Positions 1-34,137 of a stretch of DNA of 34,695 nt are shown here, piece by piece (positions within the stretch are counted from its first letter, which is position 1; the number at the start of each line of letters is the position of its first letter). Source of the stretch: a virus; the IMG/VR virus record IMGVR_UViG_3300042503_000997, positions 1 to 34,695 of that record. One strand, written 5' to 3'. The translations under genes and the position numbers were made by a program. A model generated the notes under the pieces. That model was not told the origin of the DNA. It did not search any database and saw only the letters and a list, made by a program, of their open reading frames with translations.

Positions 1-145
1 TCGCAGTGTTGTAAATTAAAGTGTATCCATCTTGAACACCCTCTAGATCTACATCCGCTAACGTCTCTATTTTAGTTGATGTTCTTTTACTTACTATACT
101 TGTATTTATAGCATTTGAAGTTCCTACAGTAACTTTAAGTGACAT
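1..145 (-). CDS. Tail-fibre-like structural protein, N-terminal 48 residues (partial)
   Basis: The reading frame starts at ATG 145-143 and runs off the left edge of the window, so only 48 residues are visible. It begins MSLKVTVGTSNAINTS and contains LADVDLEGVQDGYTLIYN. This resembles the 'L-x-DVD...G-x-x-L-x-YN' motif that recurs in tail fibre and structural proteins of marine T4-like phages (recalled family pattern, not searched). The start codon shares one base with the stop of the upstream gene (TAATG), which implies translational coupling with it. It is probably an accessory fibre or baseplate decoration protein. The length and C-terminal receptor region are unknown because of the truncation. 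Confidence 0.6.
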   Translation of the reverse strand, partial: MSLKVTVGTSNAINTSIVSKRTSTKIETLADVDLEGVQDGYTLIYNTA

Positions 146-474
146 TATTTTGTTACCTCCGGATTAATTACAACGATTCCTTCTAGGACTCGTAGCGTTT
201 CATCTTCGCCTGTAATTTCGATATCATACACATATCTACCTGCTTTTATTGCTGATGTTTGCGCAGCAGTCAATGAAATAGTAACTTCGCCGTCTAGTGG
301 TAGAGAAACTTCTGTTGTAAAATTTATAGAAGTATTGGTGTAGTATGATTTGCGCATTTGTGCTGCTGCAGTATAATCGGAAAGATCTTTCGGATCTCCG
401 CTCTGATCATTTACTACAAGAGATAAAGAAAAAGTTGTTCCCTGATCAATGTATATATTTTGAATTTGTGCCAT
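145..474 (-). CDS. Small Ig-like/BppU-type baseplate or fibre accessory protein
   Basis: A 109-residue protein beginning MAQIQNIYIDQGTTFSLSL. Its pattern of short beta strands (DLSDYTAAAQMRKS, a middle GEVTISL, then AGRYVYDIEIT and a closing EGIVVINPEVT) resembles small Ig-like or BppU N-terminal-like domains near phage tail fibre genes. The role is inferred from this resemblance and from the neighbouring fibre-like gene, with which it forms a TAATG stop/start overlap. The start at 474 is supported by an AAGGG ribosome-binding site about 7 bases upstream and by an exact late promoter TATAAATA at 509-502. It is probably a virion protein made late in infection. No catalytic motif was seen. Confidence 0.6.
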   Translation of the reverse strand: MAQIQNIYIDQGTTFSLSLVVNDQSGDPKDLSDYTAAAQMRKSYYTNTSINFTTEVSLPLDGEVTISLTAAQTSAIKAGRYVYDIEITGEDETLRVLEGIVVINPEVTK

Positions 475-484
475 CTGGAACCCT

Positions 485-492
485 TATAAATT
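485..492 (+). promoter_or_regulatory. Possible late promoter (TATAAATT, 7 of 8 match)
   Basis: The plus-strand octamer TATAAATT differs from the late consensus at the last base and lies 32 bases before the ATG at 525. It would drive the glycosyltransferase cassette, which otherwise has no obvious promoter. It is back to back with the minus-strand late promoter at 509-502. The match is imperfect, so this is a candidate only. Confidence 0.4.
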
Positions 493-501
493 ATACGGTA
501 A

Positions 502-509
502 TATTTATA
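502..509 (-). promoter_or_regulatory. T4-type late promoter TATAAATA
   Basis: An exact TATAAATA on the minus strand lies 27 bases before the ATG of the 109-residue protein, a fitting distance for a -10-like element plus a short leader. In T4-like phages this octamer is the late promoter recognised with gp55 and gp33/gp45. Here it sits in the only divergent gap at this end of the window. Confidence 0.7.
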
Positions 510-524
510 ATAACTGAGAATACT

Positions 525-1211
525 ATGCAAACGATTTTGATGTTAAAATATGGGAAAAAATATTCTGCAGCAGACGTAAACAGAATAGTAAATGATACTG
601 GTAGAAAATACAACTATGCTTGTATCACCGACGATCCAACAGACCTAGATCCAATCATAAAAATAATTCCAATGCCAGAAGATGTAGAAGGTCACTGGAT
701 TAAAATATGGATGTATACTCTTGAAGGTTTGGGTGACACTTTATACCTGGATCTTGATGTTAGAATACAAAAAAATATTGATCATCTGTGGAATTACCTT
801 GACATTTATCCAACAATAGCGTATACTTACTGGAAGAATAAAGAGTGGCCAGATTATGATGGCGGAACTCATGGTATGCGTTACTTGAGTAATTACAACT
901 CGAGTGTTGTACTGTGGAAAGAAGGAACTGTTCAACATATTTGGGAACACTTTGAGAACAACGCTGATTACTACATGGTTAAATACTTTGGTGATGATAG
1001 GTTTTTATGGCATGAAGATTTTCGATTTAATCGTTTCCCGCGAGGCGAGTTATACTCATTTGTATATGGCGCAGATTATTATGGTGTAGATGATGACAAT
1101 GATTCCTTCGTGTATCGCCCAAGATATACCATAGCATTACTAAACGGTTTGGATCAATTCCCAGGAGCAGATAAAAAATATGATGAATTTCGTATGCATC
1201 AAGTGGGGTGA
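525..1211 (+). CDS. GT-A-like glycosyltransferase, paralogue 1 of 4
   Basis: A 228-residue protein beginning MQTILMLKYGKKYSAADVN. A GT-A type metal/nucleotide-sugar motif DLD is at residues 76-78 within YLDLDVRIQKNID. An acceptor-side segment YNSSVVLW is near 124-131 and GDDRFLWHEDF near 156-166. The same blocks recur in the three genes that follow, so this is the first of four tandem paralogues. The frame is open further upstream, to 345, but that part overlaps the oppositely oriented 109-residue gene; ATG 525 fits the family alignment. It probably transfers a sugar in the host cytoplasm, but donor and acceptor cannot be told. Its 3' end overlaps the next gene by about 30 bases. Confidence 0.75.
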   Translation: MQTILMLKYGKKYSAADVNRIVNDTGRKYNYACITDDPTDLDPIIKIIPMPEDVEGHWIKIWMYTLEGLGDTLYLDLDVRIQKNIDHLWNYLDIYPTIAYTYWKNKEWPDYDGGTHGMRYLSNYNSSVVLWKEGTVQHIWEHFENNADYYMVKYFGDDRFLWHEDFRFNRFPRGELYSFVYGADYYGVDDDNDSFVYRPRYTIALLNGLDQFPGADKKYDEFRMHQVG

Positions 1212-1947
1212 TAAGTATCCTGCCAAATATGTGAATAATCTTTACAACATGGTAAAGAAAAATTATGCTCGCAATCCTGCGTCATATACTTTCACATGTT
1301 ATACTGACGATGCAGAGGGAATTGACTGTGATACTGCACCAATACCAGACGATGGTATTTTACACCCGAAGCATTGGTTTGAAAAAGAAACTTTCTGCTT
1401 TGACCGTGCAAAGTTCTTGGTATTCAATTCACACAATTGGTTGGGATACGAGGGCAACTGGTGCTACTTTGATCTTGATGTAGTAATCCAAGAAAATATA
1501 ACAGACATAGAACAACTTGCACAGAAACCAAGAATTATTCACAGTCGTTGGCAACCTAAATCACAGATACACGACAGATTGTTTATTGATACTCGAGGAA
1601 CATTCTACAACTCTAGTATGATGTTATGGCCTGGTAAAGCATGCGAGCATATTTACGATGATGTTGTAACGCACAATGAAATTGTTTTCAAAACTTACAT
1701 TAAAGGTAGTGACAATTATCATTACTGGAGACAGAGAGATTTCTGGAAGGACATTCCAGGTGGATGGATCTACTCTTGGAATCGTGGGAAGCATTATCCA
1801 GAGGACATTGAAAAATTTATATATAGGAAAGACGCCAAGATTTGCTTGTTCAATACAGACAACATACCACACCCAAGTGCAAAACAACAAATTAAATTGG
1901 TAGAATGTAAAGATCCAGATATTATTAGATTGTGGAACTGTGAATGA
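1183..1947 (+). CDS. GT-A-like glycosyltransferase, paralogue 2 of 4
   Basis: A 254-residue protein starting MNFVCIKWGDKYPAKYVNNL; an alternative ATG lies one codon earlier at 1180. A GGAG ribosome-binding site lies upstream, inside the previous gene. It carries CYFDLDVVIQENI with the DLD motif at about residues 97-99, then YNSSMMLW, GSDNYHYWRQRDFW and GGWIYSWNRG. These blocks match the neighbouring paralogues. The extra length compared with paralogue 1 lies mainly between the N-terminal KWG motif and the DLD motif (an added HPKHWF...FNSHNW segment shared with paralogue 3). It overlaps the next gene through an ATGA junction at 1944-1947, indicating coupled translation. The sugar and the acceptor are unknown. 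Confidence 0.75.
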   Translation: MNFVCIKWGDKYPAKYVNNLYNMVKKNYARNPASYTFTCYTDDAEGIDCDTAPIPDDGILHPKHWFEKETFCFDRAKFLVFNSHNWLGYEGNWCYFDLDVVIQENITDIEQLAQKPRIIHSRWQPKSQIHDRLFIDTRGTFYNSSMMLWPGKACEHIYDDVVTHNEIVFKTYIKGSDNYHYWRQRDFWKDIPGGWIYSWNRGKHYPEDIEKFIYRKDAKICLFNTDNIPHPSAKQQIKLVECKDPDIIRLWNCE

Positions 1948-2762
1948 GAGTAAACTATATCTGCTGTAAATGGGGAACAAAGTATTCCGCTGAGTTTGTC
2001 AATCGCCTATACCGAATGGCAAAGAAGCACACCCCTGATAATTTTGAGTTCCATTTCTATTGCTATACAGACAACAGTGAAGATTTTGATAATGAAATTA
2101 AAGTCATCGACTTCCCAGACATTCCCGACATCCATCCGAAATACTGGTTCGGTTCAGAGGATTTCAAATACGGCATGGCACGTTGTTGGGACAGACCGAA
2201 GACGTTCATCTTCAATACACATAACTTCGCAGACGATAAACCCACTGGCAGATTTGTCTTTTTCGACCTTGATGTTATCATACAAAATGATTTGTCGCCA
2301 ATCATCACTTATGACCTAGAGAATCCTACCAAGTTGCGGTCGTGGTGGCAAGATCCTCGACCCATGAAGACTCGAAACTTTAAATTATCCCATGGTGCAT
2401 ATACCAATGGTAGTTGTATGGTGTGGTCAGATGATCAGACAGAGTGCATCTGGCAGGATGTATTAGAACACCAAGAGCGCATTTGGTTTACGTTCACGGA
2501 TGGAACAGACAACTATCACAGTTGGAGGTGGGGAGACTTCAGTGACACTCCACTCTGGAGACACTTTCCAAGCACCTTTGCGTATTCATACAATCGTGGT
2601 CGCAACTGGCATGAAGGCGATTTAGAAGTAGGAATATATAGAAAGGACTGTATCCTTTGTGTGTTTAACGTGGACCTGCTTCCGTTTCAGGATAATAGTA
2701 GAGGTAAAGTCAAGCAGGAGTCGCTCGTCGACCCTGATCTTTTAGAGCATTGGAATGTATGA
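1944..2762 (+). CDS. GT-A-like glycosyltransferase, paralogue 3 of 4
   Basis: A 272-residue protein starting MRVNYICCKWGTKYSAEFVN at the ATGA overlap with the preceding gene. The DLD motif is at about residues 108-110 in FFDLDVIIQND. It shares IHPKYWF, NTHNF, GTDNYHSWRWGDF and FAYSYNRGRNW with paralogue 2, so these two are the closest pair of the four. The YNSS block is changed to TNGSCMVW, which may alter acceptor choice. Its stop codon overlaps the next start (ATGA at 2759-2762). The likely role is glycan synthesis or glycosylation of a virion or host surface molecule; the target is not visible in the sequence. Confidence 0.75.
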   Translation: MRVNYICCKWGTKYSAEFVNRLYRMAKKHTPDNFEFHFYCYTDNSEDFDNEIKVIDFPDIPDIHPKYWFGSEDFKYGMARCWDRPKTFIFNTHNFADDKPTGRFVFFDLDVIIQNDLSPIITYDLENPTKLRSWWQDPRPMKTRNFKLSHGAYTNGSCMVWSDDQTECIWQDVLEHQERIWFTFTDGTDNYHSWRWGDFSDTPLWRHFPSTFAYSYNRGRNWHEGDLEVGIYRKDCILCVFNVDLLPFQDNSRGKVKQESLVDPDLLEHWNV

Positions 2763-3445
2763 TGATTAGCATTTACACCGTTAAGTGGGGATTTAAATAC
2801 AACTCAGAACATGTCAATAAAATTCTGGAACAATGTAAGGAGTATATTACTTCTGAGTTTGAGTTTTACTGTCTGACCGAGCATTCGCTTGGGTTAGATC
2901 CAGAGATAAATGTCATTCCTTTTCCTGAAGATAATTATTATGAGAAATGGTGGAACAAACTTTATCTTTTTGATAAATCTGTTATCAGAAAACAAGGCGA
3001 GAAACTTTTCTTAGACTTGGATATTGGGATTCAACAGAACATCGATTGTATTGTAGATCATGATCCCGAGGATGGACTAACATTTGTTCGCACTCATTGG
3101 CACAACATGAAGAAAATGAAAACAGACACAAAGGATATTCCGCACAAATACACGGATCTCAATTCTAGTGTTCTGCGGTGGAACGACAGATTAGATATTG
3201 ATAAGATTACCAAGTTCGTCAGAGATTATCCCGACCAGATGTTCTATTATTATCGAGGGCTTGACAATCTATTTGGACATCAGAGAGACCGTCTACTAAA
3301 GATTAATTTTTTCCCTGATGGTTGGGTTTATAGTTATAACTATGGATACATGTGGCCAACTGATGTGAGAGAACAAGTTTTACGAGAAGAACCACTTATT
3401 TGCTTATATGATTCAATGGAAAGACCACAAGATGTTAAATTATAA
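2759..3445 (+). CDS. GT-A-like glycosyltransferase, paralogue 4 of 4
   Basis: A 228-residue protein starting MMISIYTVKWGFKYNSEHVN. ATG 2759 forms an ATGA overlap with the upstream stop; a second ATG follows at once at 2762, and the TTG at 2750 is less likely. The DLD motif is at about residues 86-88 in LFLDLDIGIQQNID. Later blocks are DLNSSVLRWND, GLDNLFGHQRDR and WVYSYNYGYMW. It is short like paralogue 1 and lacks the HPKxWF...NTHNF segment of the middle pair. The downstream methyltransferase-like gene starts inside its last codons, so the five genes look like one transcript with coupled translation. Confidence 0.75.
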   Translation: MMISIYTVKWGFKYNSEHVNKILEQCKEYITSEFEFYCLTEHSLGLDPEINVIPFPEDNYYEKWWNKLYLFDKSVIRKQGEKLFLDLDIGIQQNIDCIVDHDPEDGLTFVRTHWHNMKKMKTDTKDIPHKYTDLNSSVLRWNDRLDIDKITKFVRDYPDQMFYYYRGLDNLFGHQRDRLLKINFFPDGWVYSYNYGYMWPTDVREQVLREEPLICLYDSMERPQDVKL

Positions 3446-4088
3446 TTACTTAAACAACTATCGTTATTGGGGTGAGGGTCTAGAAAAGATCAATCACGAA
3501 ATGCCGTATAAGCATGAGGATTTTAGAAAATCCCTGAATCCAAATACTATGGATGCTGCTATCTGGTTGGTAGAAAATCTACAGAGACTTACTCGTGGTC
3601 CGAATCCGTTGAATATTACTATTCTAAATTCTTGGTTAGGATTTCCGCTTGTTCCACTTCTTTGTGAAAATTTAGACGTCAAGAAAATTGATCTTATCGA
3701 CATCGACAAAGATGCATTAGAATTATCAAAAGTGTTTAATCGTTATTATTCTGAGAAGGGTGTTGAGTTAAATCATATCAATTGGGATATTCCTTTTGCA
3801 TACCATGATATTAATGCATTGGAAACTGATGTAGTAATATCGCTTGGGTGTGAAACTATGTATCCTCTTAAGAAAATGACGACGGCAAATCCAGATTGTA
3901 TCTTCGCATGTCAGTCATCAAATGTTTTCAGAGAGATGTATGGTATCAACTGTGTACCTACACTGGAAGACCATATCGAGAATGTTGGAATCACCACAGT
4001 TGAATATCAGGGTCAGATTGAACAGCACTATTGGTCTTGGGATGGTAAGGTAAATTTCGATCGCTTCATGGTAATTGGGAAGAAATAA
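3432..4088 (+). CDS. Class I (Rossmann) methyltransferase-like protein
   Basis: A 218-residue protein. ATG 3432 is preferred over ATG 3408 because GGAAAG lies 7 bases before it. The order of elements fits an SAM-dependent methyltransferase: a motif I position (ITILNSWLGFPLVPLL, residues about 63-76), an acidic strand IDLIDIDKDALELSK (87-100), a later WDIPFAY, and a hydrophobic strand DVVISLGCETM near the motif IV position. The usual GxGxG of motif I is not present (WLGFP instead), so catalytic activity is not certain. It follows four glycosyltransferases, consistent with methylation of a sugar or glycosylated product, but a nucleic-acid or protein substrate is equally possible from sequence alone. 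It ends with a TAATATG junction to the next gene. Confidence 0.55.
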   Translation: MLNYNYLNNYRYWGEGLEKINHEMPYKHEDFRKSLNPNTMDAAIWLVENLQRLTRGPNPLNITILNSWLGFPLVPLLCENLDVKKIDLIDIDKDALELSKVFNRYYSEKGVELNHINWDIPFAYHDINALETDVVISLGCETMYPLKKMTTANPDCIFACQSSNVFREMYGINCVPTLEDHIENVGITTVEYQGQIEQHYWSWDGKVNFDRFMVIGKK

Positions 4089-4089
4089 T

Positions 4090-4707
4090 ATGGCAAGAGC
4101 AAGAGTAGTTTCACAACCACCCCAAGATTATGTTCCGGAACCATTAGTAGCGCCTCCACCTCCACCAGAAATTATTGAAGAACAAAAGTGGATAGATGGT
4201 AATCTAGAAGAAGAAGTTGAACAAAATGAACCTTCCCAAGAAGAACTTGAGAAGGAAAGAATTGCACAAGAAAAATATGAAGAACTGCAACGCAAGAAAG
4301 CAGAAGAAGAAACTAGACTCTCAGTAGAGTTGCAATCTTTACGCGAACAAAATGAAAAACTTATCAGAGAAAAAGAAGCAGCAGAAAAGGCAAGAGAAGA
4401 ACAAATTCTCAGGGTGCGGCGACAGGCAACTGAACAGGGTGGCAGTCAGTTGAACATGGTACAGGCACGGAAACCTACTTTATTCAGCAGAATAAAAGAT
4501 TTCTTTAAGCGCAGAAGAATTCAATTTGCTACCATTCCACAAGCAAACTACGAACAAGCAATCATCCATCAAGCATCAGTTGCTGTTCCAAAGATGCTTG
4601 ATGAAATCGAAAAGATGCATGAGAGTTTGACGATACTCGAAGAACTATTGGCAAAGCACAAAGAACGCGAGAAGATCAAGAAAAATGAGAAGCATCCTCG
4701 CCACTAA
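4090..4707 (+). CDS. Proline-rich and coiled-coil protein of unknown function
   Basis: A 205-residue protein starting MARARVVSQPPQDY; ATG 4090 has GGGAAG upstream and follows the preceding stop by one base. Residues about 20-30 are proline-rich (APPPPPE). A long charged heptad-like helix rich in E, K and Q follows to about residue 120, then a basic stretch (FFKRRR) and a second helical region near the C-terminus ending in lysine- and histidine-rich residues. No signal peptide, membrane segment or enzyme motif was seen. It could be a scaffold or adaptor, but the function is not recognised. The gene ends tail to tail with the minus-strand oxygenase-like gene, overlapping it by 32 bases. Confidence 0.6.
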   Translation: MARARVVSQPPQDYVPEPLVAPPPPPEIIEEQKWIDGNLEEEVEQNEPSQEELEKERIAQEKYEELQRKKAEEETRLSVELQSLREQNEKLIREKEAAEKAREEQILRVRRQATEQGGSQLNMVQARKPTLFSRIKDFFKRRRIQFATIPQANYEQAIIHQASVAVPKMLDEIEKMHESLTILEELLAKHKEREKIKKNEKHPRH

Positions 4708-5353
4708 TGTCCTCAATCATTGACCGCCAAATTTCAAGATGAGGAACTACGTAAGCAAGCGTTAGTCTCTTGGCAGTATTACCGCAGCAGTGATAGATAA
4801 TTTTATTTGGATCGCTACGATCACCAAAGTATCCAACCTTACACGACCATCCCTTTGGATCGACCATAGTAACAACTTCTTTTGTTACAGGATCCAAGTA
4901 ACGGAAGAATCCGCCATTTTCCTCAGCATTATATGTGATAAGAATATTATATCCTGATGCGTTCCAGTTGTTGTGCCATCCCATAAATCCATTTTCAGGG
5001 TAGTATGTAAACACTGCATTATTTCTTGCGCCCAGATAACTGATCAATTCTTTATTAGTTTCTTGTTGCCTTCTACCATATTCAGAAGGGAACCATGGTT
5101 GCCCATGTGCCTGTGACATATCAGTGCACCATGCAACATCAGGAAATCCAACGTGCTTTTCACCCTTACCCACGATATGATTCATATACTGCTCGTCGGT
5201 AGCGGTGTCCACATTTAATCCACCTTGACGTCTTCTTTGCATATCTTCTGGACCCAGAACAAGATGTTGATCATTTTGTTCAAAGAACCATTTGGTAAAT
5301 GGGTCTAGAATGTCACTTAGTTCTTTAGAAACTGAATTTGTAAATTGTAGCAT
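4676..5353 (-). CDS. 2OG-Fe(II) oxygenase-like protein
   Basis: A 225-residue protein starting MLQFTNSVSKELSDIL. ATG 5353 has AGGAAA just upstream, and the longer open frame to 5458 would run through the end of the previous gene. The C-terminal half has the layout of a double-stranded beta-helix dioxygenase: YYPENGFMGWHNNWN, then GYNILITYNAEENGGFF, then KIIYHCCGNTAKRLTLAYVV. Candidate iron ligands are H127 and H188, with R196 in the usual 2-oxoglutarate-binding place. The normal HxD acid is an Asn here (H-N-N at 127-129), which is odd and could mean altered chemistry or loss of activity. It may hydroxylate a protein, nucleic acid or sugar. Last gene of a three-gene minus-strand unit. Confidence 0.6.
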   Translation of the reverse strand: MLQFTNSVSKELSDILDPFTKWFFEQNDQHLVLGPEDMQRRRQGGLNVDTATDEQYMNHIVGKGEKHVGFPDVAWCTDMSQAHGQPWFPSEYGRRQQETNKELISYLGARNNAVFTYYPENGFMGWHNNWNASGYNILITYNAEENGGFFRYLDPVTKEVVTMVDPKGWSCKVGYFGDRSDPNKIIYHCCGNTAKRLTLAYVVPHLEIWRSMIEDISGEDASHFS

Positions 5354-5364
5354 GTGTTTCCTGT

Positions 5365-6060
5365 TTAAGTTAATAAGGAATGTGGGATTGTGTAATGATA
5401 AATTACTATTGGTTGACCTTGCAATTCTTCTTCTTTGTAACCTGAAACAAAGTTCCATCTAGCATCTGGGTCGGGGAATCTAGCAGTCTTAACACCAAAA
5501 TCAAAATGATTTAGAAGTCTCCACATTGTGAATGTGTCCCACTGCAGAGCAGATTCAGGATAATGCTTGCGATCCCATCCTGGTTTATTCTGTTCCCAAT
5601 ACTCATCATACCAAGCACGCATTAGTTTTAGAGTATGTGCATTATTTCGATAGATGAACAACCCACAATGCTCAGTCATTTCTTCAGTGTCTGAGAGTTT
5701 AGTTATTGCTGCATTGTATGGACGATTAGCAGTAAACAACACATCTACATCTTCTGGAATCTGATCAAAGATTTTAGTTATGTCTTCATGTTCAACTTCC
5801 GTGTCACAATCCATGTAAACAGTCAGGTCATATGGTGTCTGATCAAGCGCCCACAGTTTTGCACGCTTGTCTCTTGGGACATTCTCAGTAATAACGGTAT
5901 CAAAAATTTCATAGTCATCTGGTTGAACCCATTCCTCATGCGTGAAGAATGTTATTTTTGCATCAGGATAGAAGTCGCGTAGAGATATAGCAGAATTTCT
6001 TGCTGCTCTGTAGTAACCTTTTCTTACTGTTGCAACATAGAGAAACCCATTATTCTGCAT
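5365..6060 (-). CDS. GT-A-like glycosyltransferase (different family from the plus-strand cassette)
   Basis: A 231-residue protein starting MQNNGFLYVATVRKGYYRAA. ATG 6060 is preferred; the in-frame TTG at 6078 would deepen the overlap with the upstream gene, and AGAGAAG lies before ATG 6060. The N-terminal strand FLYVATVR and a chain reaching VYMDCDTEV at residues 82-90 fit a GT-A nucleotide-diphospho-sugar transferase, with D84-C85-D86 as the DxD motif. Later blocks are HCGLFIYRNN and ESALQWDTFTMWRLL. Its N-terminal and DxD contexts differ from those of the four plus-strand paralogues, so it is not a recent copy of them. It overlaps the upstream gene by 11 bases and is followed 11 bases later by the oxygenase-like gene. 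Confidence 0.65.
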   Translation of the reverse strand: MQNNGFLYVATVRKGYYRAARNSAISLRDFYPDAKITFFTHEEWVQPDDYEIFDTVITENVPRDKRAKLWALDQTPYDLTVYMDCDTEVEHEDITKIFDQIPEDVDVLFTANRPYNAAITKLSDTEEMTEHCGLFIYRNNAHTLKLMRAWYDEYWEQNKPGWDRKHYPESALQWDTFTMWRLLNHFDFGVKTARFPDPDARWNFVSGYKEEELQGQPIVIYHYTIPHSLLT

Positions 6061-6505
6061 TAACTGCTTCTCTGACAATAGCAGTGTTTGCTTCTTCCTG
6101 TTGTAGAAGAATAACAGTGTAAGCAGTAACTTCCATAATATTCTTGGCCTTACGAATCTTAGATTTTAAATCACGATTCTTCGAGGACTTGATCAAGTCA
6201 ATTTCAAATGCATCCAGTTTAGCAGCGAACAGTTGCTCTTGCTGCATGCGAGTTTTGTCAACCTTCTGGCGTTCAATGTTATGCTTAATATGTTGGTTGC
6301 GATCATCAAACCGCTTTTTAGTATTCGCGTCAATCTGTTCGACGCTAAACTTTTTCATCAATTCATCGAAGTCACGATTAGTACCATCGTTCATAATTGA
6401 TGCAGTTGCTCGTTTACCCGTATCAGGATAAACGAACTCTGCGATAACATGTTGTTTTTCTTTGTTCGCCCAATAAGGATTTTCAATAGTGCGTGTGGTA
6501 GTCAT
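6050..6505 (-). CDS. Conserved-looking phage protein of unknown function, helical and charged
   Basis: A 151-residue protein starting MTTTRTIENPYWANKEKQHV, with GGAGA five bases before the ATG. The N-terminal third looks like a small beta-containing region (HVIAEFVYPDTGKRATASI); the remainder is charged and helical (DDRNQHIKHNIERQKVDKTR and following). The form resembles a small protein found near structural genes in marine T4-like phages, but I do not recognise a named family. It heads the three-gene minus-strand unit and has a sigma70-like promoter upstream, unlike the late structural genes. It could be a chaperone or virion accessory protein; no enzymatic motif was seen. Confidence 0.55.
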   Translation of the reverse strand: MTTTRTIENPYWANKEKQHVIAEFVYPDTGKRATASIMNDGTNRDFDELMKKFSVEQIDANTKKRFDDRNQHIKHNIERQKVDKTRMQQEQLFAAKLDAFEIDLIKSSKNRDLKSKIRKAKNIMEVTAYTVILLQQEEANTAIVREAVNAE

Positions 6506-6575: not shown

Positions 6576-8831
6576 TTATACTGTGCGAACCCAAAGTTTT
6601 ATCGTCGATACAGTTTCTTTAGTTTCAATTACTGTTGCACCAACGAAGGTGTTGGAGTATGTTCCGCTGAAGTTACCAGCATAGTTACCAGTATAGTTTC
6701 TTGACCCAGCATAGAATCCAGTGTAGTTACCTGTAAAGAATCCAGTGTAGTTACCTGTATATGTTGCAGTGCCTGTATAGAACCCAGTGTAGTTACCTGT
6801 GAAGAATCCAGTATAGTTGCCTGTGAACGTGGCGGTACCAACATAATTACCAGAGAAGAATCCAGTATATGTTCCTGAGTAGAATCCAGTATATGTCGCA
6901 GGTCCAACATAGTTGCCCGTAAAGAATCCTAGATAGTTACCTGTGAAATTTCCAGCATAGTTTGCTGCATAGTTTCTTGAACCAGAGAAGAATCCAGTAT
7001 ATGTTCCAAGGTAGTTGCCTGCATAATTGCCAGCATAGTTTCTTGAACCAGAGAAGTTCTGTGAATATGTTCCTAGGTAGTTACCCGCATAGTTACCAGC
7101 ATAGTTTCTTGAACCAGAGAAGTTTCTAGAATATGTTCCAAGATAGTTACCTGCATAGTTACCAGCAAAGTTCCTAGAACCAGCATACGTTCCTAGATAG
7201 TTGCCGCTGAAGTTTCCTAAGTAACTTCCACTAAAGTTTCTTGAATATGTTCCAAGGTAGTTGCCGCTGAAGTTTCCTAAGTAACTTCCACTAAAGTTTC
7301 TTGAATATGTTCCAAGGTAGTTACCAGCGAATGTTCCACCAGCGAAACCACCAAAGAATGGCACATAGTTTCCGAGGTAGTTACCACTGAAACTGCCAAG
7401 GTAGTTACCAGTGAAGTTCTGTGAATATGTTCCAAGGTAGTTACCACTGAAACTGCCAAGGTAGTTACCAGTGAAGTTCTGTGAATATGTTCCAAGGTAG
7501 TTGCCTGCATAATTGCCAGCATAGTTTCTCGACCCAGAATATGTTCCAAGGTAGTTGCCTGAGAAGTTACCCAGATAACTACCAGCATAGTTTCTAGAAC
7601 CAGCATACGTTCCTAGATAGTTGCCACTGAAATTACCAAGATAGTTGCCAGAATAGGTTCTAGAACCAGCATATGTTCCTAGGTAGTTGCCACTGAAGTT
7701 TCCAGCATAGTTACCAGAATAGGTTCTAGATCCAGAGAAAAATCCAGTATATGTTCCGCTAAAGTTTCTGGTATAGTTACCAGAATACCCAGCAGTTCCA
7801 ACATATCCGCCTGCATAATTTCCAGTGAAGTTACCTGCATAATTTCCAGAATAACTCTGCGGACCAACATATCCACCGCTGAAATTATTAGCAAAACTTC
7901 CTGCATATGTTCCAGAATAACTCTGCGGACCAACATATCCACCGCTGAAAGTATTTGCGAATGAACCAGCATATGTGCCTGCATAGTTACCAGAAAAGTT
8001 TCTAGATCCACTAAAATTGCCTACATAGTTACCAGCAAAGTTACCGACATAGTTTTGTGGTGAAACTTGTTCACGAGTATCTGCAAACTGATCACCCAGT
8101 TCGACCCATGTTCCACCAGAAACAGGGGCAGATGATTGGACTTTATACAATCCTACACCACTATCAACAATTCTGTTTCTGAAATTCGGAAGCATCTGTA
8201 GAATTTCCGAAGATGACATTTCTTTGACATCTTTAGTGTCAATAAGTTTCAGTGGTTTTAAATTGGAGTCTGAAAGAGTAGTCGCAGCAGTTTTCTGCCA
8301 CAGATATGTTACTGTGTTTCCACCATTGGCAACATCTGTTAAGGTATAACGTGAAACCCATGTACCACCTGATGGTGCAGTAGGTTGCAATCTATACTGT
8401 CCAGCAGTATAAGTTGTTTCGGAGACCATCGCATTAATAGCATAATCCAGAATTTCAGTATCAATCTGTGCGTCTGTTAGTTCTTTGATACCGTCGTCAT
8501 ATTTTAGTGGACGATTAGTAATGTTTTCCGTGGCAGCAGCAGTAACCTGCTTAACAGTATATGTTGTAGTAGAAACTGCACCAGTTGCAGGGTGTGTGCC
8601 TGTTGCTTCTGTTCGATCTGTATCAGCGAATGTTCCGATTGTAGTACCAGATCCACTGTTGTTTGTGGTAATGTTAATTTCAGCTGTGCCTGCGCCATCT
8701 GAGTTCGCACCAAAGGAAACAGTAAGAGTTTGCGCAATATAGTTTTTTACCTCGTCAACAGACATCTGCTGCAGACCCTGCCAGTTTGCAGCAGAAACTG
8801 GCGTTGCTGAGGATTTATTTCTTAGTACCAT
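6576..8831 (-). CDS. Giant Gly-aromatic tetrapeptide-repeat fibre-like protein, copy B
   Basis: A 751-residue protein. Residues 1 to about 257 form a non-repetitive head that closely matches the next gene (shared blocks EINITTNNSG, GTHPATGAVSTTTYT, ENITNRPL, and EQVSPQNYVGNF at its end). From about 258 to 733 the chain is an array of four-residue units of the type G-(N/S/T)-(Y/F)-x, for example NYLGTYSGNFSG, interspersed with GSRNY. A short C-terminal cap (ETKETVSTIKLWVR) is again shared with the neighbour. This head/array/cap layout suggests an elongated trimeric or solenoid fibre on the virion, possibly adhesive. It starts one base after the stop of copy A (TAATATG). Two exact 60-bp tandem duplications lie within the array. 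No known family is assigned. Confidence 0.7.
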   Translation of the reverse strand: MVLRNKSSATPVSAANWQGLQQMSVDEVKNYIAQTLTVSFGANSDGAGTAEINITTNNSGSGTTIGTFADTDRTEATGTHPATGAVSTTTYTVKQVTAAATENITNRPLKYDDGIKELTDAQIDTEILDYAINAMVSETTYTAGQYRLQPTAPSGGTWVSRYTLTDVANGGNTVTYLWQKTAATTLSDSNLKPLKLIDTKDVKEMSSSEILQMLPNFRNRIVDSGVGLYKVQSSAPVSGGTWVELGDQFADTREQVSPQNYVGNFAGNYVGNFSGSRNFSGNYAGTYAGSFANTFSGGYVGPQSYSGTYAGSFANNFSGGYVGPQSYSGNYAGNFTGNYAGGYVGTAGYSGNYTRNFSGTYTGFFSGSRTYSGNYAGNFSGNYLGTYAGSRTYSGNYLGNFSGNYLGTYAGSRNYAGSYLGNFSGNYLGTYSGSRNYAGNYAGNYLGTYSQNFTGNYLGSFSGNYLGTYSQNFTGNYLGSFSGNYLGNYVPFFGGFAGGTFAGNYLGTYSRNFSGSYLGNFSGNYLGTYSRNFSGSYLGNFSGNYLGTYAGSRNFAGNYAGNYLGTYSRNFSGSRNYAGNYAGNYLGTYSQNFSGSRNYAGNYAGNYLGTYTGFFSGSRNYAANYAGNFTGNYLGFFTGNYVGPATYTGFYSGTYTGFFSGNYVGTATFTGNYTGFFTGNYTGFYTGTATYTGNYTGFFTGNYTGFYAGSRNYTGNYAGNFSGTYSNTFVGATVIETKETVSTIKLWVRTV
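7201..7320 (-). repeat. Exact tandem duplication, 2 x 60 bp, inside the fibre array
   Basis: Bases 7201-7260 and 7261-7320 are identical. Each encodes 20 residues of the type NFSGSYLG / NFSGNYLG / TYSR. Perfect identity, including third codon positions, points to a recent duplication by slippage or unequal recombination; neighbouring units have diverged. Confidence 0.95.
7381..7500 (-). repeat. Second exact tandem duplication, 2 x 60 bp, inside the fibre array
   Basis: Bases 7381-7440 and 7441-7500 are identical and encode two 20-residue units of the type NFTGNYLG / SFSGNYLG / TYSQ. The unit length equals that of the duplication 60 bases to the left, but the sequence differs, so 20 residues looks like the unit of copying. 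Confidence 0.95.
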
Positions 8832-8832
8832 A

Positions 8833-11709
8833 TTATGCTGCCCTTATCCACAATTTTACGGATGAAACTGTTTCTTTAGTTGCTTGTATTGTTGCTCCTG
8901 AAAACGTTCCACTGAAATTGCCAGAGAATTGTCTCGAGTAATTACCAAGGAAGTTTCCAGTTCCTATATAGGTTCCAGAATAAGTTCTAGATCCAGAGTA
9001 ACTTATTGTTCCTCCGTAGTTTCCAACATAGTTGCCAGAATAAGTTCTAGATCCAGCATACGCTTGGAGACCAGAGAAAAATCCTAGATAGTTACCAGAA
9101 TAGTTTCTCGAACCAGAGTAACTTATTGTTCCACCGTAGTTTCCTAAGTAGTTACCAGAATAGTTTCTCGATCCAGAATACGCTTGAAGACCAGAGAAAA
9201 CTCCTAGATAGTTACCAGAATAAGTTCTAGATCCAGAATAACTTATTGTTCCACCGTAGTTTCCAACATAATTACCAGAATAAGTTCTAGATCCAGAGTA
9301 AACGCCAGCATCACCATAGAATCCTAAATAGTTACCAGAATATGCTCTAGATCCAGCATAGTTCTGTGGACTAGTGTAGATTCCTGTACCCGAGTAGTTA
9401 CCACTGTAGTTTCTAGAACCAGCATAGTTCTGTGGTCCATCAAAGTTTCCAGTTCCTAAATAGTTACCAGAATAGTTTCTAGATCCAGAGTAGTTCGCTG
9501 GTCCAGTAAAGAATCCTGTTCCTGCGTAGTTACCAGAATATGTTCTAAATCCAGAGTAGTTCTGTGGACCTGCAAAAGTCCCTGTTCCTGCGTAGTTACC
9601 AGAGTATGCTCTAGATCCAGCATAGTTCTGCGGTCCAACAAAGTTTCCTGTGCCTAGATAGTTACCAGAATAGTTTCTAGATCCAGAAAACGTTCCGGAG
9701 TAATTTATATTCGGCGCTGCATAATACCCAACATATCCATCAGGTGGATCAAGCGTATAATTTCTAGAACCTGCGAAATTACCAGAATATGGTGGACCTG
9801 CAGGTCCCTGATAAAATACTGGGAAACTGCCGATTGGGGTCATATTCAGCGCAATGAATCCTGGACCTGTGTAGAATCCTCCAGGACCACTGAAGTACGG
9901 TGTCTCAAAAAATACTACCGTATCCATATTATTAGGAGTTGGTTGGTATATTGTGTATGGTGTACCAGAATATCCTATTTGTCCAGAAAACGTTCCTGAA
10001 TAATATTCTGCCATGAAGGACCCACCAGGAGCAGAGTATGATGGACCAGCATAAAATCCTGTGTAGTTTCTCGACCCAGAATAGAATCCAATAAAAGGGG
10101 GTGGTTCTGGTGAAAGGAAGTTTGGACCTATGTAGTTACCAGTATAATTTCTAGAACCAGCATAGTTCTGTGGTCCAACAAAGTTTCCTGTGCCCAGATA
10201 GTTACCAGAATAAGTTCTAGATCCAGCATAGTTCGCTGGACCAATAAAGTTCCCAGTTCCTAAATAGTTACCAGAATAGTTTCTAGAACCAGCATAGTTC
10301 TGCGGACTAGTGTAGGTTCCTGTACCCGAGTAGTTACCAGAATATGTTCTGGATCCACCATAATTCTGTGGTCCGACAAAGGTTCCTGTGCCCAGATAGT
10401 TACCAGTATAGTTTCTTGATCCAGAATAGTTTGCTGGACCAGAGAAGAATCCTGTTCCTGCGTAGTTACCAGAATATGTTCTGCTACCAGAATAATTACC
10501 TGAAAAGTTTCCAGTGCCTGCGTAGTTACCAGAATATGCTCTAGAACCAGAATATGCTCCACTAAATGAGGCAAATTGAAGATAACCTGCAGTGTAGTTT
10601 CTAGAACCACTAAAGTTACTAGCGAAAGTAGCGAACCCCAGATAACTACCAGAATAGTTCCTAGTACCAGAATATGCGCCACTAAATGTGACACCACCTA
10701 GATAGTTACCAGAATATGCTCTAGATCCACTAAAGTTTCTAGAGAAAGTAGCAAAACCCATGTACCCATCTGGGAAGAATAGGGCATAATTCCTGGAACC
10801 AGAATATGTTCCACTAAATGTGCCGCTACCAATATAATTTCCTGAATAGTTTCTAGATCCAGAGTAGTTCTGTGGACCAGCATAATTACCAGAAAAATTA
10901 CCAGTAAAATTACCAGTGAAGTTACCGACATAGTTTTGTGGTGAAACTTGTTCACGAGTATCTGTGAAGGTGTTACCAGATTGAATCCAAGTACCGCCAC
11001 TAGGCGCATCCGTTTGGATTTTATAGGTTCCGATACCAGTTTCAATAATTCTATTTCTGAAGACAGGAAGCATCTGTTCAATTTCTGCTTCGGTCATCTG
11101 CTTGCAGTTACCACCATTAAATATTCTTAGTGGTGTAAAATCTACTGTTGGCGCTGAAGACGCAACTGTTTTCTGCCACAGATATGTTACAGTGTTTCCA
11201 CCTTGCGCTGTATCTGTTAGTGTGTATCTTGCGACCCAAGTTCCGCCTGATGGTGCAGTTGCTTGTAGTTTGTATTGCCCAGCAGTATATGATGATTCCG
11301 CGACCATCGCCTCGACACAGAGATCCATGGTACCATCGATATCACCATCTGTCATTTCTTCTAGACGAGAATCCCATGCTAATGGTCTGTTGGTAATATT
11401 TTCAGTCGCCGTAGCAGTAACCTGCTTGGCAGTATATGTTGTTGTAGAGACTGCACCAGTAGCAGGATGCGTTCCGATAGATTCGTTTCTTGTCGTATCG
11501 ACAAACGTACCGATCGAAGTTCCTGCACCTGAGTTATTTGTCGTGATGTTTATTTCAGCAGTACCAGTACCATCTGTTACTGCAGCAAATTTTTCTGTGA
11601 TAACATTGGCAATATAATTTTTTACCTCTGCATCGGTCATGGTCTGCAAACCGCTAATGTTTGCAGAAGTGATTGGGGACCCTGTTGCCTTGACCTTTAG
11701 AGGATTCAT
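8833..11709 (-). CDS. Giant Gly-aromatic tetrapeptide-repeat fibre-like protein, copy A
   Basis: A 958-residue paralogue of the downstream gene. The head (about residues 1-258) and the C-terminal cap (ATKETVSSVKLWIR) match copy B. The array between them is built from longer composite units such as GSRNYSGNYLGTGNFVGPQN, richer in Pro, Thr and Ser-Arg than copy B. Around residues 525-670 the periodicity is broken by a Pro/Gly/aromatic segment with SPEPPPFIGF, YTIYQPTPNNMD and GPAGPPYSG. This may be a separate domain or knob in the shaft. The stop is followed after one base by the start of copy B, and its own start lies one base after the previous stop (TAAAATG), so three fibre genes look coupled. 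A virion surface role is inferred. Confidence 0.7.
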   Translation of the reverse strand: MNPLKVKATGSPITSANISGLQTMTDAEVKNYIANVITEKFAAVTDGTGTAEINITTNNSGAGTSIGTFVDTTRNESIGTHPATGAVSTTTYTAKQVTATATENITNRPLAWDSRLEEMTDGDIDGTMDLCVEAMVAESSYTAGQYKLQATAPSGGTWVARYTLTDTAQGGNTVTYLWQKTVASSAPTVDFTPLRIFNGGNCKQMTEAEIEQMLPVFRNRIIETGIGTYKIQTDAPSGGTWIQSGNTFTDTREQVSPQNYVGNFTGNFTGNFSGNYAGPQNYSGSRNYSGNYIGSGTFSGTYSGSRNYALFFPDGYMGFATFSRNFSGSRAYSGNYLGGVTFSGAYSGTRNYSGSYLGFATFASNFSGSRNYTAGYLQFASFSGAYSGSRAYSGNYAGTGNFSGNYSGSRTYSGNYAGTGFFSGPANYSGSRNYTGNYLGTGTFVGPQNYGGSRTYSGNYSGTGTYTSPQNYAGSRNYSGNYLGTGNFIGPANYAGSRTYSGNYLGTGNFVGPQNYAGSRNYTGNYIGPNFLSPEPPPFIGFYSGSRNYTGFYAGPSYSAPGGSFMAEYYSGTFSGQIGYSGTPYTIYQPTPNNMDTVVFFETPYFSGPGGFYTGPGFIALNMTPIGSFPVFYQGPAGPPYSGNFAGSRNYTLDPPDGYVGYYAAPNINYSGTFSGSRNYSGNYLGTGNFVGPQNYAGSRAYSGNYAGTGTFAGPQNYSGFRTYSGNYAGTGFFTGPANYSGSRNYSGNYLGTGNFDGPQNYAGSRNYSGNYSGTGIYTSPQNYAGSRAYSGNYLGFYGDAGVYSGSRTYSGNYVGNYGGTISYSGSRTYSGNYLGVFSGLQAYSGSRNYSGNYLGNYGGTISYSGSRNYSGNYLGFFSGLQAYAGSRTYSGNYVGNYGGTISYSGSRTYSGTYIGTGNFLGNYSRQFSGNFSGTFSGATIQATKETVSSVKLWIRAA

Positions 11710-11710
11710 T

Positions 11711-12193
11711 TTAGTTTAACCTGTTACCACTCGAGTCATAAACAATTAAATTAGTTACGCGATACCAATCTACAGCATCTTGTGCAACCAATTCAACAGA
11801 CGAATATGGTGACAAATTGACACCAACATTGACAGTTCCACCGTCAATAACATCTGAGGTATCTGGATACACAACAATAGTAACTGCTGTAGTATTAATA
11901 ACCTTGATGGTCAAACCTGCAGCAGCAGTAGGAAGTTTTACACCCTGATTTGCTGTTGCTGTTGTGATCATGTTGAGAGTTTTTGTCAGCGCAGTTGCAG
12001 TACCTTGGGTAGTTCCCGCTGCTGCGACTGTGCCTGCAACCGATTTGGTTAGACTCCCAGTAAGTGCTAAATCTGCAAAGGAAGGACTTGATCCAGACTC
12101 ATACTTATCAGTATTCAAATTGCTGAAGTTATTATCAACTTCAGTATTTGTCAGCGGAGTCCCCTTTACAGATCTAAGGGTAAGTGTGCTCAT
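11711..12193 (-). CDS. Fibre or baseplate-attached structural protein
   Basis: A 160-residue protein starting MSTLTLRSVKGTPLTNTEVD. The N-terminal motif LTNTEVDNNFSNLNTDKY is typical of the attachment end of many tail fibre proteins in marine phages (recalled pattern). The rest is Thr/Ala/Val-rich with predicted beta strands (GLTIKVINTTAVTIVVYPD, then VDWYRVTNLIVY) and lacks the tetrapeptide arrays of its two downstream neighbours. It may be a short fibre or the adaptor that connects the giant repeat proteins to the baseplate. An exact late promoter lies 70 bases upstream at 12270-12263, so this gene probably heads the fibre transcript. Confidence 0.65.
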   Translation of the reverse strand: MSTLTLRSVKGTPLTNTEVDNNFSNLNTDKYESGSSPSFADLALTGSLTKSVAGTVAAAGTTQGTATALTKTLNMITTATANQGVKLPTAAAGLTIKVINTTAVTIVVYPDTSDVIDGGTVNVGVNLSPYSSVELVAQDAVDWYRVTNLIVYDSSGNRLN

Positions 12194-12203
12194 GCTTTTA
12201 TCC

Positions 12204-12413
12204 TTATTTCTGTAGTATTTGTGTTAGTAAGTTTTTAATCTCAATCATTTCATTCTTAAGATTATTTATATCGTCTCCATATGATTCAATTTGTTTCATG
12301 TGTTGTTTGCGAGACTTGTATGCCTGCAGAGCAGGCAGGTCATTCGAAAGTATTGCCTTCGAATGACCATCACGTTCATACTTTGTAGTATCAGTTAGTT
12401 TAATTCTTGTCAT
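12204..12413 (-). CDS. Small coiled-coil protein of the baseplate/fibre block
   Basis: A 69-residue protein starting MTRIKLTDTTKYERDGHSKA. ATG 12413 lies one base after the stop of the 2101-residue gene (TAATATG); the upstream TTG at 12431 is less likely. The second half (SRKQHMKQIESYGDDINNLK and following) has heptad spacing of I, L and M, typical of a short parallel coiled coil. It could be a trimerisation or adaptor peptide for the fibres. The coding sequence contains two back-to-back perfect hairpins (12321-12368) and, near its 3' end, a late promoter for the next gene. The function is not known. Confidence 0.65.
   Translation of the reverse strand: MTRIKLTDTTKYERDGHSKAILSNDLPALQAYKSRKQHMKQIESYGDDINNLKNEMIEIKNLLTQILQK
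12263..12270 (-). promoter_or_regulatory. T4-type late promoter TATAAATA (internal)
   Basis: An exact minus-strand match lies within the 3' end of the small coiled-coil gene and 69 bases before the ATG at 12193. It probably starts a transcript for the three fibre genes. Promoters inside the end of the preceding gene are common in T4-like late regions. Confidence 0.6.
12321..12368 (-). other. Two adjacent perfect hairpins inside a coding sequence
   Basis: TGCCTGC-AGA-GCAGGCA (12321-12337, 7-bp stem, 3-base loop) abuts GGTCATTCGAA-9-TTCGAATGACC (12338-12368, 11-bp stem, 9-base loop) with no base between them. Neither is followed by a T-tract on either strand, so they are not ordinary intrinsic terminators. 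They lie about 50 bases before a late promoter on the same strand. Confidence 0.75.
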
Positions 12414-12414
12414 A

Positions 12415-15400
12415 TTACACCTGCAACGCAATCGCTCTAAGTTCTCTTACTAATGGAACTACAGAACTATTTGTTGATGTCGGAATAACCTTCACTGCGA
12501 AATTTTTGTATCCACTATAAGTCACACTTCCTGCAGTATATTCCAGAACTCCACCAACTTTATTTGCTGTAGGTATAGTATACTGGTATTCAACAAACCC
12601 AGATTTTCCAGTGCTAACTATTGGTGTTTGGGCGAGTTCTAATTGGATCCAATCTAGATCATCAAAATTACTCGGATCAGTCGCATTCTGGAATCTACCA
12701 TATACTCTAACATCACAACCAGCAGGAATCTGATTGCTCAGATAAACCTTTAGATCTTCAGCATCTTGACCGTCATCGAGAATAACACGACGAGAAATAT
12801 ACTTCGATGCTGCAGTTCCGTTGTTTCCATCTTCACCAGAAATATCATCTGGTCCATTAATATCATTGGCAATAGCGATCATTGAACATTTTCTGGTGTC
12901 GATTACAGGAGACACAGTTGATGTTTGAGTCACCATGCCTGCTCTTATGCTCAGAGATTTATCTCCACCCAAGTTTGCTTGCTCGTTTGAGTAAGAATAT
13001 ACTTGTGCTTCATATGTTAATGCATGTTCTTGCCCGAAGTTAAACCCTTCGTATGAATCTCCACCAGCGCTCGCGCCAGTAGCAGTTGGTGCTATAGACC
13101 AAGAAACTACCGCAGGAGTATGATCAATAAACCCGACATTAGTTTCCACAACATTAAGTTGTTTATTCTCGACTTCTATAATTTCAGCATAAGTCGTGCC
13201 ATTCCCAATAATATCAGTAGCAGTGAATCTGCCACTCCTTACTAAGATTTTACCAACATTATACAGAGAATCATACTGCTTCACGAATCCTCTATTCAGA
13301 GTTACCGCGACTACCGCAGCAGAACCACTACCACTTGAAATAGTTAGTGTCGGATTACTTGTGTATCCTGCTCCTGGATTTGTAACTACGACGTCAGTTA
13401 CTATTCCACCTGCAATTGTTACGGCGACAGTCGCATTTGTAGTAGCACCACCCCCTGAAAGAGTATGTGATATACTTCCATCTGTATAACCAGAACCTGC
13501 GTTTGTAATGTTGAATGAGAATCCGTGGATTGCATCTCCTGGTTCAAAATTTCCATTAGTAAACGAATCAAATTTCAAGAAGTCGACATCCATATTTTTC
13601 ATTTCAATCAAACCAACTGTATTAATATCGAAATCTGCGCGACGCAAAGTAAACTTGATATCTTCTGCTTGCCACGCTGTCCAAGATCTATCATTGGCAG
13701 ATGTAAATAGCACACCAATATTTGGTTGTTCAGAAATTCTGTTTTCAGTGCCAAGTTCATTTGCACCCAATTCAGAAACCCAAATATTATAATCTGGATT
13801 ATTACCTGCGGGAAGAAGAACAAAACAGTACTCTGTGTTATTTTGCAGGTATACTGGCGACGGGAACACAAAAGTTGTTGCTGCAGTTGCATCTTCACTG
13901 ACAGTAATATCGGCAGGATTCAACGTGACTTCACCGAATGGAATAACTTTATTTCCTGGGTATCCATTTACCACTTCGCGCAATTGGAGAGTGATTGGCG
14001 CAGTAGATGATTTGGTTCTGAAATATATGTCAAGGTTAGTGACATAACAACCAAATGGCATACCGTCAACGTAGAATGTCTGTGCGATAGGATCTCGATA
14101 TAACCTGCCTCCAGGACGACAGGCAGCAGGAACTTGGGTGGAGCAACTTGGTTCTTGATCATCGCTTATTGTTTCAAGCCTTATGTTATCCTGCCCACCA
14201 AACCCATTGGGTCCTCTAAGTACTCGCTCACTACCATTGGGAGTAAACTCTCTACAGATTGTTACTGGTGCACATGGATCTGGTTGCGGAGTATCGGGTT
14301 GCGGGACTACATCAGGTGCAGGAGTAGGTGCTGGTGTCGGAGCAGGAGTAGGTGCAGGTGTAGGTGCTGGAGTCGGTGCTGGCGTCGGAGCAGGTGTTGG
14401 AGCAGGTGTTGGAGCAGGAGTCGGTGCTGGCGTCGGAGCAGGAGTCGGAGCAGGTGTAGGTGCTGGAGTCGGAGCAGGTGTCGGCGCTGGTGTTGGCGTT
14501 GGAGATGGCGCTGGTGTCGGTGCTGGCGTCGGAGCAGGTGTTGGAGCAGGTGTTGGAGCAGGAGTCGGTGCTGGCGTCGGAGCAGGAGTCGGAGCAGGTG
14601 TAGGTGCTGGAGTCGGAGCAGGTGTCGGCGCTGGAGTCGGAGCAGGTGTCGGAGCAGGTGTAGGTGCTGGTGTAGGCACAATAATTGTTGTATACTCATT
14701 GTAAACATTAGTAACATTGGTGTTATTAACTACTACTGAATTATCAGTTACACTATTATCAATGTTTGTAGTGTTGTTGATAGTGGTATAGGTGTTGTTT
14801 ACATTGGTTTGCACAACTCCGACAGATCTATCAGCTAATCTATTCTCAGTCGTAGATGTTTCAAAGACTGATCTCGAATCAGAAACAGAACCAATCGCCA
14901 CATTTGCAACGCGAGTTGATACGACTGTATCTTGAACAGATTGTGACAATCCATTTGCTGACCATGTTTGCATCGCCGCAGTTGTTACAAATGGTTCGCG
15001 ATTGTGTGGATCATCACAGAGACGGAAATTCTTGTCGCCAGTACGGAATGTTGCTGCCGGAATTCTAAATTGTCCCACACAAACACCTTGAGCATTTGTG
15101 ATCAGGGAATCGCCATAATTACCATCAACATATGATGAATATGCTGCAGGATCGACAGGCGCAAGGTCTGTTGCTGGATCAAAATTCAGTGGTCTACAAT
15201 GCGTTGTAACATTAACACCATCAAAGAACGGGAATACTCGAGTATTAGGTTTCATTCTTTTTGCGATGAACGTCACCACAACTGAACGCATGAACGGAAT
15301 AATCGAAGTATCCGTTACACGAGCACCAATTCGTTGGGATTGTGTTTCAGGAGTTACCGATATAGAAACGCCTTGACGAGTTTGGCGCTGTTCCGTCGTA

Positions 15401-26410: not shown

Positions 26411-26418
26411 TATTTATA
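26411..26418 (-). promoter_or_regulatory. Late promoter TATAAATA almost touching the gp25 start
   Basis: An exact minus-strand TATAAATA in the short gap between the spike gene stop and the gp25 ATG. The octamer ends five bases before the ATG, so T4-type initiation about six bases downstream would give a leaderless gp25 message. It may therefore serve gp6 rather than gp25, or be a chance match. Confidence 0.45.
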
Positions 26419-34129: not shown

Positions 34130-34137
34130 TATTTATA
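34130..34137 (-). promoter_or_regulatory. T4-type late promoter TATAAATA for the baseplate genes
   Basis: An exact minus-strand match 36 bases before the gp48 ATG in the divergent gap between gp48 and gp4. Its last base overlaps the first base of the oppositely oriented gp4 start codon, so transcription in the two directions is tightly linked here. Confidence 0.75.

Follow-up and report, generated by a model that had tools for sequence, protein, structure and literature searches.

T4-like myophages of aquatic bacteria, as surveyed for pelagimyophages and cyanomyophages, carry a host recognition cluster (HRC), a structural island with tail fibers located between the neck gene (gp14) and VrlC, which also holds GT8-type transferases and radical S-adenosylmethionine (SAM) cassettes (PMC7029224). 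Here, we describe a cassette of four tandem glycosyltransferase (GT) genes, GT1 to GT4, and a methyltransferase-like (MT) gene in the virus record IMGVR_UViG_3300042503_000997 of IMG/VR (hereafter the window, that is, the whole analyzed stretch of 34,695 bases). The cassette is a well-conserved variant of this known type of phage cargo, but it differs from the HRC contents described so far in being a fixed, lineage-wide set of four paralogs with an MT, located at one precise junction and belonging to a subclade with an altered active-site motif. In the reading that we prefer, with a probability of about 0.45, this probably late-expressed cassette has been expanded in place and probably adds a sugar chain to a fiber or tail protein.

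Besides the HRC, two groups of enzymes and one glycosylation system are the closest points of comparison. The PHROG 1962 glycosyltransferases of Pelagibacter phage Mosig and phage C48C1 are homologous to the cassette proteins in the N-terminal and DLD regions; the matched copies are ~30% identical, lie elsewhere in their genomes and retain FHG where the metal ligand is located (with GDQ as well in Mosig). The GT8-type enzymes glycogenin, LgtC, and GlyE share the fold (Z ~16, 198–222 residues aligned) and the DxD motif, with the N-x-S/N-A-G and D-Q/D-N regions in register by sequence, whereas identity is 9–16%, the third-ligand His is replaced by Asn/Asp and the Gln by Asn/Arg, and the cassette proteins have lost the KPW motif. 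The virion-protein glycans of mycobacteriophages Che8 and Rita provide the model that we propose for the cassette, although these are unrelated phages in which the capsid, not the fiber, is concerned (reported in PMC11256854 with reference to Freeman et al. 2023).

Conservation and Relationships of the Cassette Genes

The order and orientation GT1-GT2-GT3-GT4-MT were kept in 111 of the 112 related loci with enough sequence to be tested (58 distinct sequences), the single exception being L043, where GT4 is split by a frameshift. Gene order was also unchanged in a more diverged set (GT1 47–54% and GT3 76–80% identical), and six long contigs (70–171 kb) contained exactly four members of the family each, all inside the cassette. 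The median ratios of nonsynonymous to synonymous substitution rates (0.13 for GT1, 0.07 for GT2, 0.04 for GT3, and 0.09 for both GT4 and MT) are low, which indicates that all five genes are maintained by purifying selection; GT1 is the most variable copy and GT3 the most constrained. A preliminary description of this DNA had delimited a cassette of six genes. The plus-strand block is real, but its core comprises five genes, as the sixth, a coiled-coil gene, is poorly conserved (44–85% identity) and is displaced or missing in some loci.

GT1–GT4 are true paralogs, and their resemblance is far beyond chance. GT2–GT4 are 23–33% identical to GT1, and the four-way alignment contains ~34 invariant columns, including (GT1 numbering) K8, G10, K12-Y13, V18-N19, D76-L77-D78, I81-Q82, N125, S127, W131, G156, D158, and Y177-S178. 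The shared blocks listed in the preliminary description could be recovered from this alignment, with the exception that GT1 carries KYGKKY instead of KWG, and the HPK.WF...N(S/T)HN segment, which had been assigned to the middle pair, is indeed limited to GT2 and GT3 among the four copies. The PHROG 1962 “glycosyltransferase” profile matched GT1 (1.9e-13) and GT4 (1.1e-10); GT2 and GT3, both paralogous to these, gave no direct match to it. Pfam and NCBIfam offered no usable family for GT1–GT4, the MT, the coiled-coil gene or the neighboring 2-oxoglutarate (2OG)-oxygenase-like gene, and GAD-like, Kringle, and PH-like matches, all below the cut-off, were treated as chance. The CAZy/Pfam GT8 family PF01501 did not match GT1–GT4 and reached only E 0.08 with the bacterial homolog. 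Among known phages, tblastn gave no matches for GT1, GT3, and MT, and distant ones only for GT4.

Predicted Fold and Active Site

Since sequence profiles of the PDB gave weak matches to LgtC (E 0.3–0.7), the comparison was made at the level of the fold. A model of GT2 was built from a 62-member alignment with AlphaFold2, and the fold of GT1, GT3, and GT4 was assigned by homology. The GT2 model (predicted local distance difference test, pLDDT, 92.6; predicted template modeling score 0.91) matched glycogenin, LgtC, GlyE, and UGGT with Z ~16 and a root-mean-square deviation of 3.0–3.6 over ~200–230 residues (Foldseek, VIA-align); Foldseek E values went down to 3.6e-7, and VIA gave a Z of 16.2 to GlyE/glycogenin. 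Its top viral match was a “glycosyltransferase” of an uncultured phage. The GT-A fold expected from the preliminary description was thus confidently predicted. The absence of the T4 alpha- and beta-glucosyltransferases (alpha/beta-GT) among the best fold matches was considered uninformative as an exclusion.

The DLD sequence, corresponding to the DxD metal/nucleotide motif, was kept in 62 of 62 sequences. At the position of the His in the FHG of the Rhizobiaceae, Kiritimatiellota, and canonical phage homologs (e.g., Mosig), GT1–GT3 have N and GT4 has D; where the Rhizobiaceae and Mosig proteins have D-Q, GT2–GT4 have D-N and GT1 has D-R (D-T in the related locus L148). The replaced His and Gln would correspond, in LgtC and glycogenin, to the third metal ligand (the C-terminal His of an HxxGxxKPW-like motif in GT8 enzymes) and to the residue close to the donor sugar; the positions were matched by sequence alignment and not by superposed coordinates. 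Within the lineage, the signature of each copy hardly varies, and this speaks for four distinct functions and against a mere dosage effect.

The MT model has the seven-stranded Rossmann fold of methyltransferases (pLDDT 80) and matched many SAM-dependent methyltransferases with E ~1e-7, which points, at moderate confidence, to a class I enzyme and agrees with the methyltransferase-like gene of the preliminary description. In place of the canonical GxGxG, motif I reads NSWLG in the window and GSWYG or GGWFG in relatives. Distant MT homologs occur beside the single-GT versions of the locus.

Probable Expansion at a Single Junction

In the phylogenetic trees, each GT copy formed its own clade (98–100% support). 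GT2 and GT3 were sisters (100/98 to 100/99), GT4 joined them (87/77 to 96/84), and GT1 grouped weakly with single-copy GTs from other phages. All GTs of the locus clustered together, separate from the canonical GTs of phages and bacteria (100/97 to 100/99), which disfavors a separate acquisition of the four genes. A clade restricted to GT1–GT4, without the single GTs, was neither supported nor rejected (approximately unbiased test, p 0.067 and 0.31).

The genomic setting places the cassette in the HRC, as cargo of T4-like aquatic phages. The left flank, as seen at the related locus L097, contains genes for tail-fiber assembly, fibers, head closure, and a head-tail adaptor. The right flank of the cassette contains fibers and a 2101-aa giant protein of phrog_358, which we infer to mark the VrlC side. 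The same junction was found in three states. In phage C48C1 (Kyanoviridae), genes for a giant repeat protein, a 154-aa protein, GTb (a putative glycosyltransferase unrelated to GT1–GT4), the 2OG-like protein, and the tail-fiber assembly protein follow one another, and the site is empty, with ~65 bases between the last two genes where the window has the cassette. L261 and L263 have one GT and an MT at this junction, in the same opposite orientation, together with a split radical-SAM/SPASM gene; in L149, L238, and L240, the site is occupied by one GT of the cassette type and a relative of the MT, accompanied by radical SAM or other enzymes. In L261, the radical-SAM/SPASM gene consists of two overlapping open reading frames (ORFs; 11639–12349 and 12342–12788, minus strand) and is apparently frameshifted or decaying.

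The empty, one-GT, and four-GT states support expansion in place within the HRC, and the order in which they arose is our interpretation of these sequences. We suggest that an ancestral single GT-A, GT8-like transferase traveled with a methyltransferase at the junction of the 2OG-like and tail-fiber-assembly genes and would then have duplicated in place to four copies, diverging into non-redundant enzymes. The sequence comparisons strongly support such an in-place duplication to four putatively non-redundant GTs, whose exact branching order is provisional. Successive tandem duplication and divergence had already been proposed in the preliminary description, and the copy-specific clades, the sister position of GT2 and GT3, and the existence of single-GT and empty versions of the site all speak for it.

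In L148, a 496-aa gene (3496–4986, plus strand) is located between GT2 and GT3; its N-terminus is GT-like, with DLD changed to TPN, and its C-terminus is weakly SPASM-like. Possibly, this is a fifth, catalytically dead GT copy fused to another domain. L148 (PCBP01000045.1) and L147 (CALPIE020000128.1) both carry the cassette and are filed in Flavobacteriales and Bifidobacterium breve genomes, respectively; in both cases, DNA of a phage has probably been mis-binned into a public genome.

Late-Promoter-Like Motifs

The late promoter motif of T4 is TATAAATA, and its cyanophage form is NATAAATA (PMC2984593). Exact copies of TATAAATA occur eight times on the structural (minus) strand of the window and not once on the plus strand, and six of the eight lie at most 140 bases from a gene start. 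Shuffled sequence had a mean of 1.2–1.5 copies per strand, and chance was therefore rejected as the source of the motif on the structural strand. In the divergent intergenic region upstream of GT1, TATAAATT faces GT1 and TATAAATA faces the tail-fiber assembly gene, back-to-back. Both motifs are conserved in the window's lineage and the surrounding bases vary; TATAAAT on the GT1 side was kept in 29 of the 30 distinct upstream regions of this lineage. A T4-late-type promoter, placed back-to-back with the one serving the tail-fiber assembly gene, would accordingly drive transcription of the cassette, and the position and conservation of the motif suggest that the enzymes are made during virion assembly.

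Putative Function

Location and timing make a fiber or tail protein slightly more likely as the acceptor than a host surface glycan. On such a protein, four soluble enzymes would attach one sugar after another, drawing on the UDP/NDP-sugars of the host, and the resulting chain would be capped or methylated by the methyltransferase. No member of the NTP-transferase family (sugar-nucleotide pyrophosphorylases) was found in five long contigs, which are possibly incomplete, and one epimerase-family gene was found in three of the five; the lack of an NTP-transferase gene is consistent with host-supplied sugars. The more specific proposal, that a fiber-locus-specific GT-A subclade with a non-His third metal site was expanded in place into a four-enzyme line that equips the tail fibers of the phage itself with a methylated oligosaccharide and is expressed with the fibers from a divergent late promoter, is put forward tentatively, as less likely than not.

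Several points weigh against modification of a fiber or tail protein by the cassette. The GTs of related phages have been assigned to modification of the host O-chain (PMC7029224). The repeat-rich fiber goes with the module of the 154-aa protein, GTb, and the 2OG-like protein (3364 aa in C48C1, without the cassette) and not with the cassette, and it was undetected in some cassette or single-GT loci. In a distant cassette lineage (L201, L206, and L211), the plus-strand late-type motif is missing or shifted, so that late expression is proposed for the window's lineage only. The replacements of His by Asn/Asp and of Gln by Asn/Arg may mean that not every copy is active, and the confidence of the MT model is moderate. 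As a separate matter, the YxGNY-repeat fiber was rejected as the specific substrate of the cassette, given its presence with the GTb/2OG module in C48C1 without the cassette and the failure to detect it in some cassette or single-GT loci.

It is plausible, though short of an even chance, that the GTs and MT instead build or cap a change on lipopolysaccharide (LPS), its O-chain or another envelope glycan of the host, preventing competing phages from adsorbing (superinfection exclusion) or progeny from adsorbing again. For the GT8-type transferases of the same genome island, the pelagimyophage survey infers host modification, arguing from the rarity of restriction systems in SAR11 hosts (PMC7029224). 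LgtC, a top fold match of GT2, is an LPS galactosyltransferase, and multi-step soluble GTs would fit work on the LPS core or O-chain. Nevertheless, the cassette is situated among fiber genes with a late-type promoter divergent from that of the fiber-assembly gene, which is later than one would expect for exclusion, and the scarcity of sugar-nucleotide genes described above also speaks against a host target.

The GT and MT genes could also be the remnant of a natural-product-like pathway acting on a peptide or small molecule, since radical-SAM/SPASM, ATP-grasp/Asn-synthetase-like, and aminotransferase-like enzymes occur at the site in relatives. Radical SAM, Asn-synthase-like, GNAT or kinase-like genes stand beside the GT and MT in L149, L238, L240, L246, and L261, and L148 has the GT-like/SPASM-like fusion between GT2 and GT3. 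We regard this as unlikely, because the window's lineage retains the GTs and MT only and sugars or amino acids on a fiber would be equally possible targets of such enzymes. DNA glycosylation is known from T4-like phages, and multi-GT sugar chains on DNA from other phages, but glycosylation of a modified base as by the T4 alpha/beta-GT or arabinosyl systems is highly improbable here, as the thymidylate synthase/dCMP hydroxymethylase family (PF00303) is absent from 10 of 10 cassette contigs (one of 171 kb; possibly incomplete), ThyX is present in three of five, the cassette belongs to the structural island and has a late-type promoter, and the GT fold is nearest to GT8-type enzymes.

Returning to the proposed glycosylation of a fiber or tail protein, the earlier assignment of fiber-island GTs in abundant aquatic T4-like phages to host LPS was itself inferred (PMC7029224). 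The empty, one-GT, and four-GT states with their fixed copy-specific active sites constitute a defined system for deciding between fiber and host surface, and a natural experiment on the building of a multi-step glycan pathway by a phage through tandem duplication.

Gene Layout and Neighboring Genes

The late structural genes of the window, which are those of a T4-like myovirus, are on the minus strand; they code for proteins of the baseplate wedge, the hub, and the tail and include giant fiber-like ORFs. Homologs from cyanophages and pelagiphages share ~35% identity with the gp6-type baseplate protein of the window. On the plus strand, the main block of genes is the cassette (Table 1). The ORF coordinates agree with the four overlapping GT genes and two ATGA overlaps of the preliminary description: GT1 and GT2 overlap by ~30 bases, GT2 and GT3 by ATGA, and GT3 and GT4 also by ATGA, provided that GT4 starts at 2759. 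As a correction, 3432 is taken as the most likely start of the MT gene and 4090 as that of the coiled-coil gene.

Table 1. Features of the cassette region and late-promoter-like motifs in the window.
Feature	Position	Strand	Remarks
L-shaped tail-fiber assembly-type protein	145–474	-	left boundary; ortholog matches PHROG 3304
Divergent intergenic region	475–524		50 bases; two T4-late-promoter-like motifs
TATAAATT motif	485–492	+	
GT1, GT-A type glycosyltransferase	525–1211	+	DLDVRIQ / YNSS / GDDR / LLNG; PHROG 1962
GT2, GT-A type glycosyltransferase	1180–1947	+	DLDVVIQ / YNSS / GSDN / FNT; HPK.WF..N(S)HN segment; modeled
GT3, sister of GT2	1944–2762	+	DLDVIIQ / TNGS / GTDN / FNV
GT4, GT-A type, without extra segment	2759/2762–3445	+	DLDIGIQ / LNSS / GLDN / YDS; PHROG 1962
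MT, class I SAM methyltransferase-like	3432–4088	+	motif I NSWLG; model fold; downstream of GT4
Proline-rich/coiled-coil accessory gene	4090–4707	+	variable; outside conserved core
2OG-oxygenase-like protein	4676–5353	-	right boundary; WH-x-N motif; start probably 5353; motif-only fold call
GTb, putative GT-A type glycosyltransferase	5365–6078	-	unrelated to GT1–GT4; weak PF00535 match
Giant fiber-like proteins	6576–8831, 8833–11709	-	Y/F-x-G-N-Y repeat-rich
TATAAATA motifs	103–110, 502–509, 12263–12270, 18854–18861, 20941–20948, 21093–21100, 26411–26418, 34130–34137	-	exact

The 2OG-like gene and GTb are constant neighbors of the cassette, of which the 2OG-like gene is not a member. In all orthologs of the 2OG-like protein seen, including those of C48C1 and the single-GT relatives, WH-x-N (WHTN, WHNN or WHHN) replaces the usual H-x-D, and its iron site may be altered.

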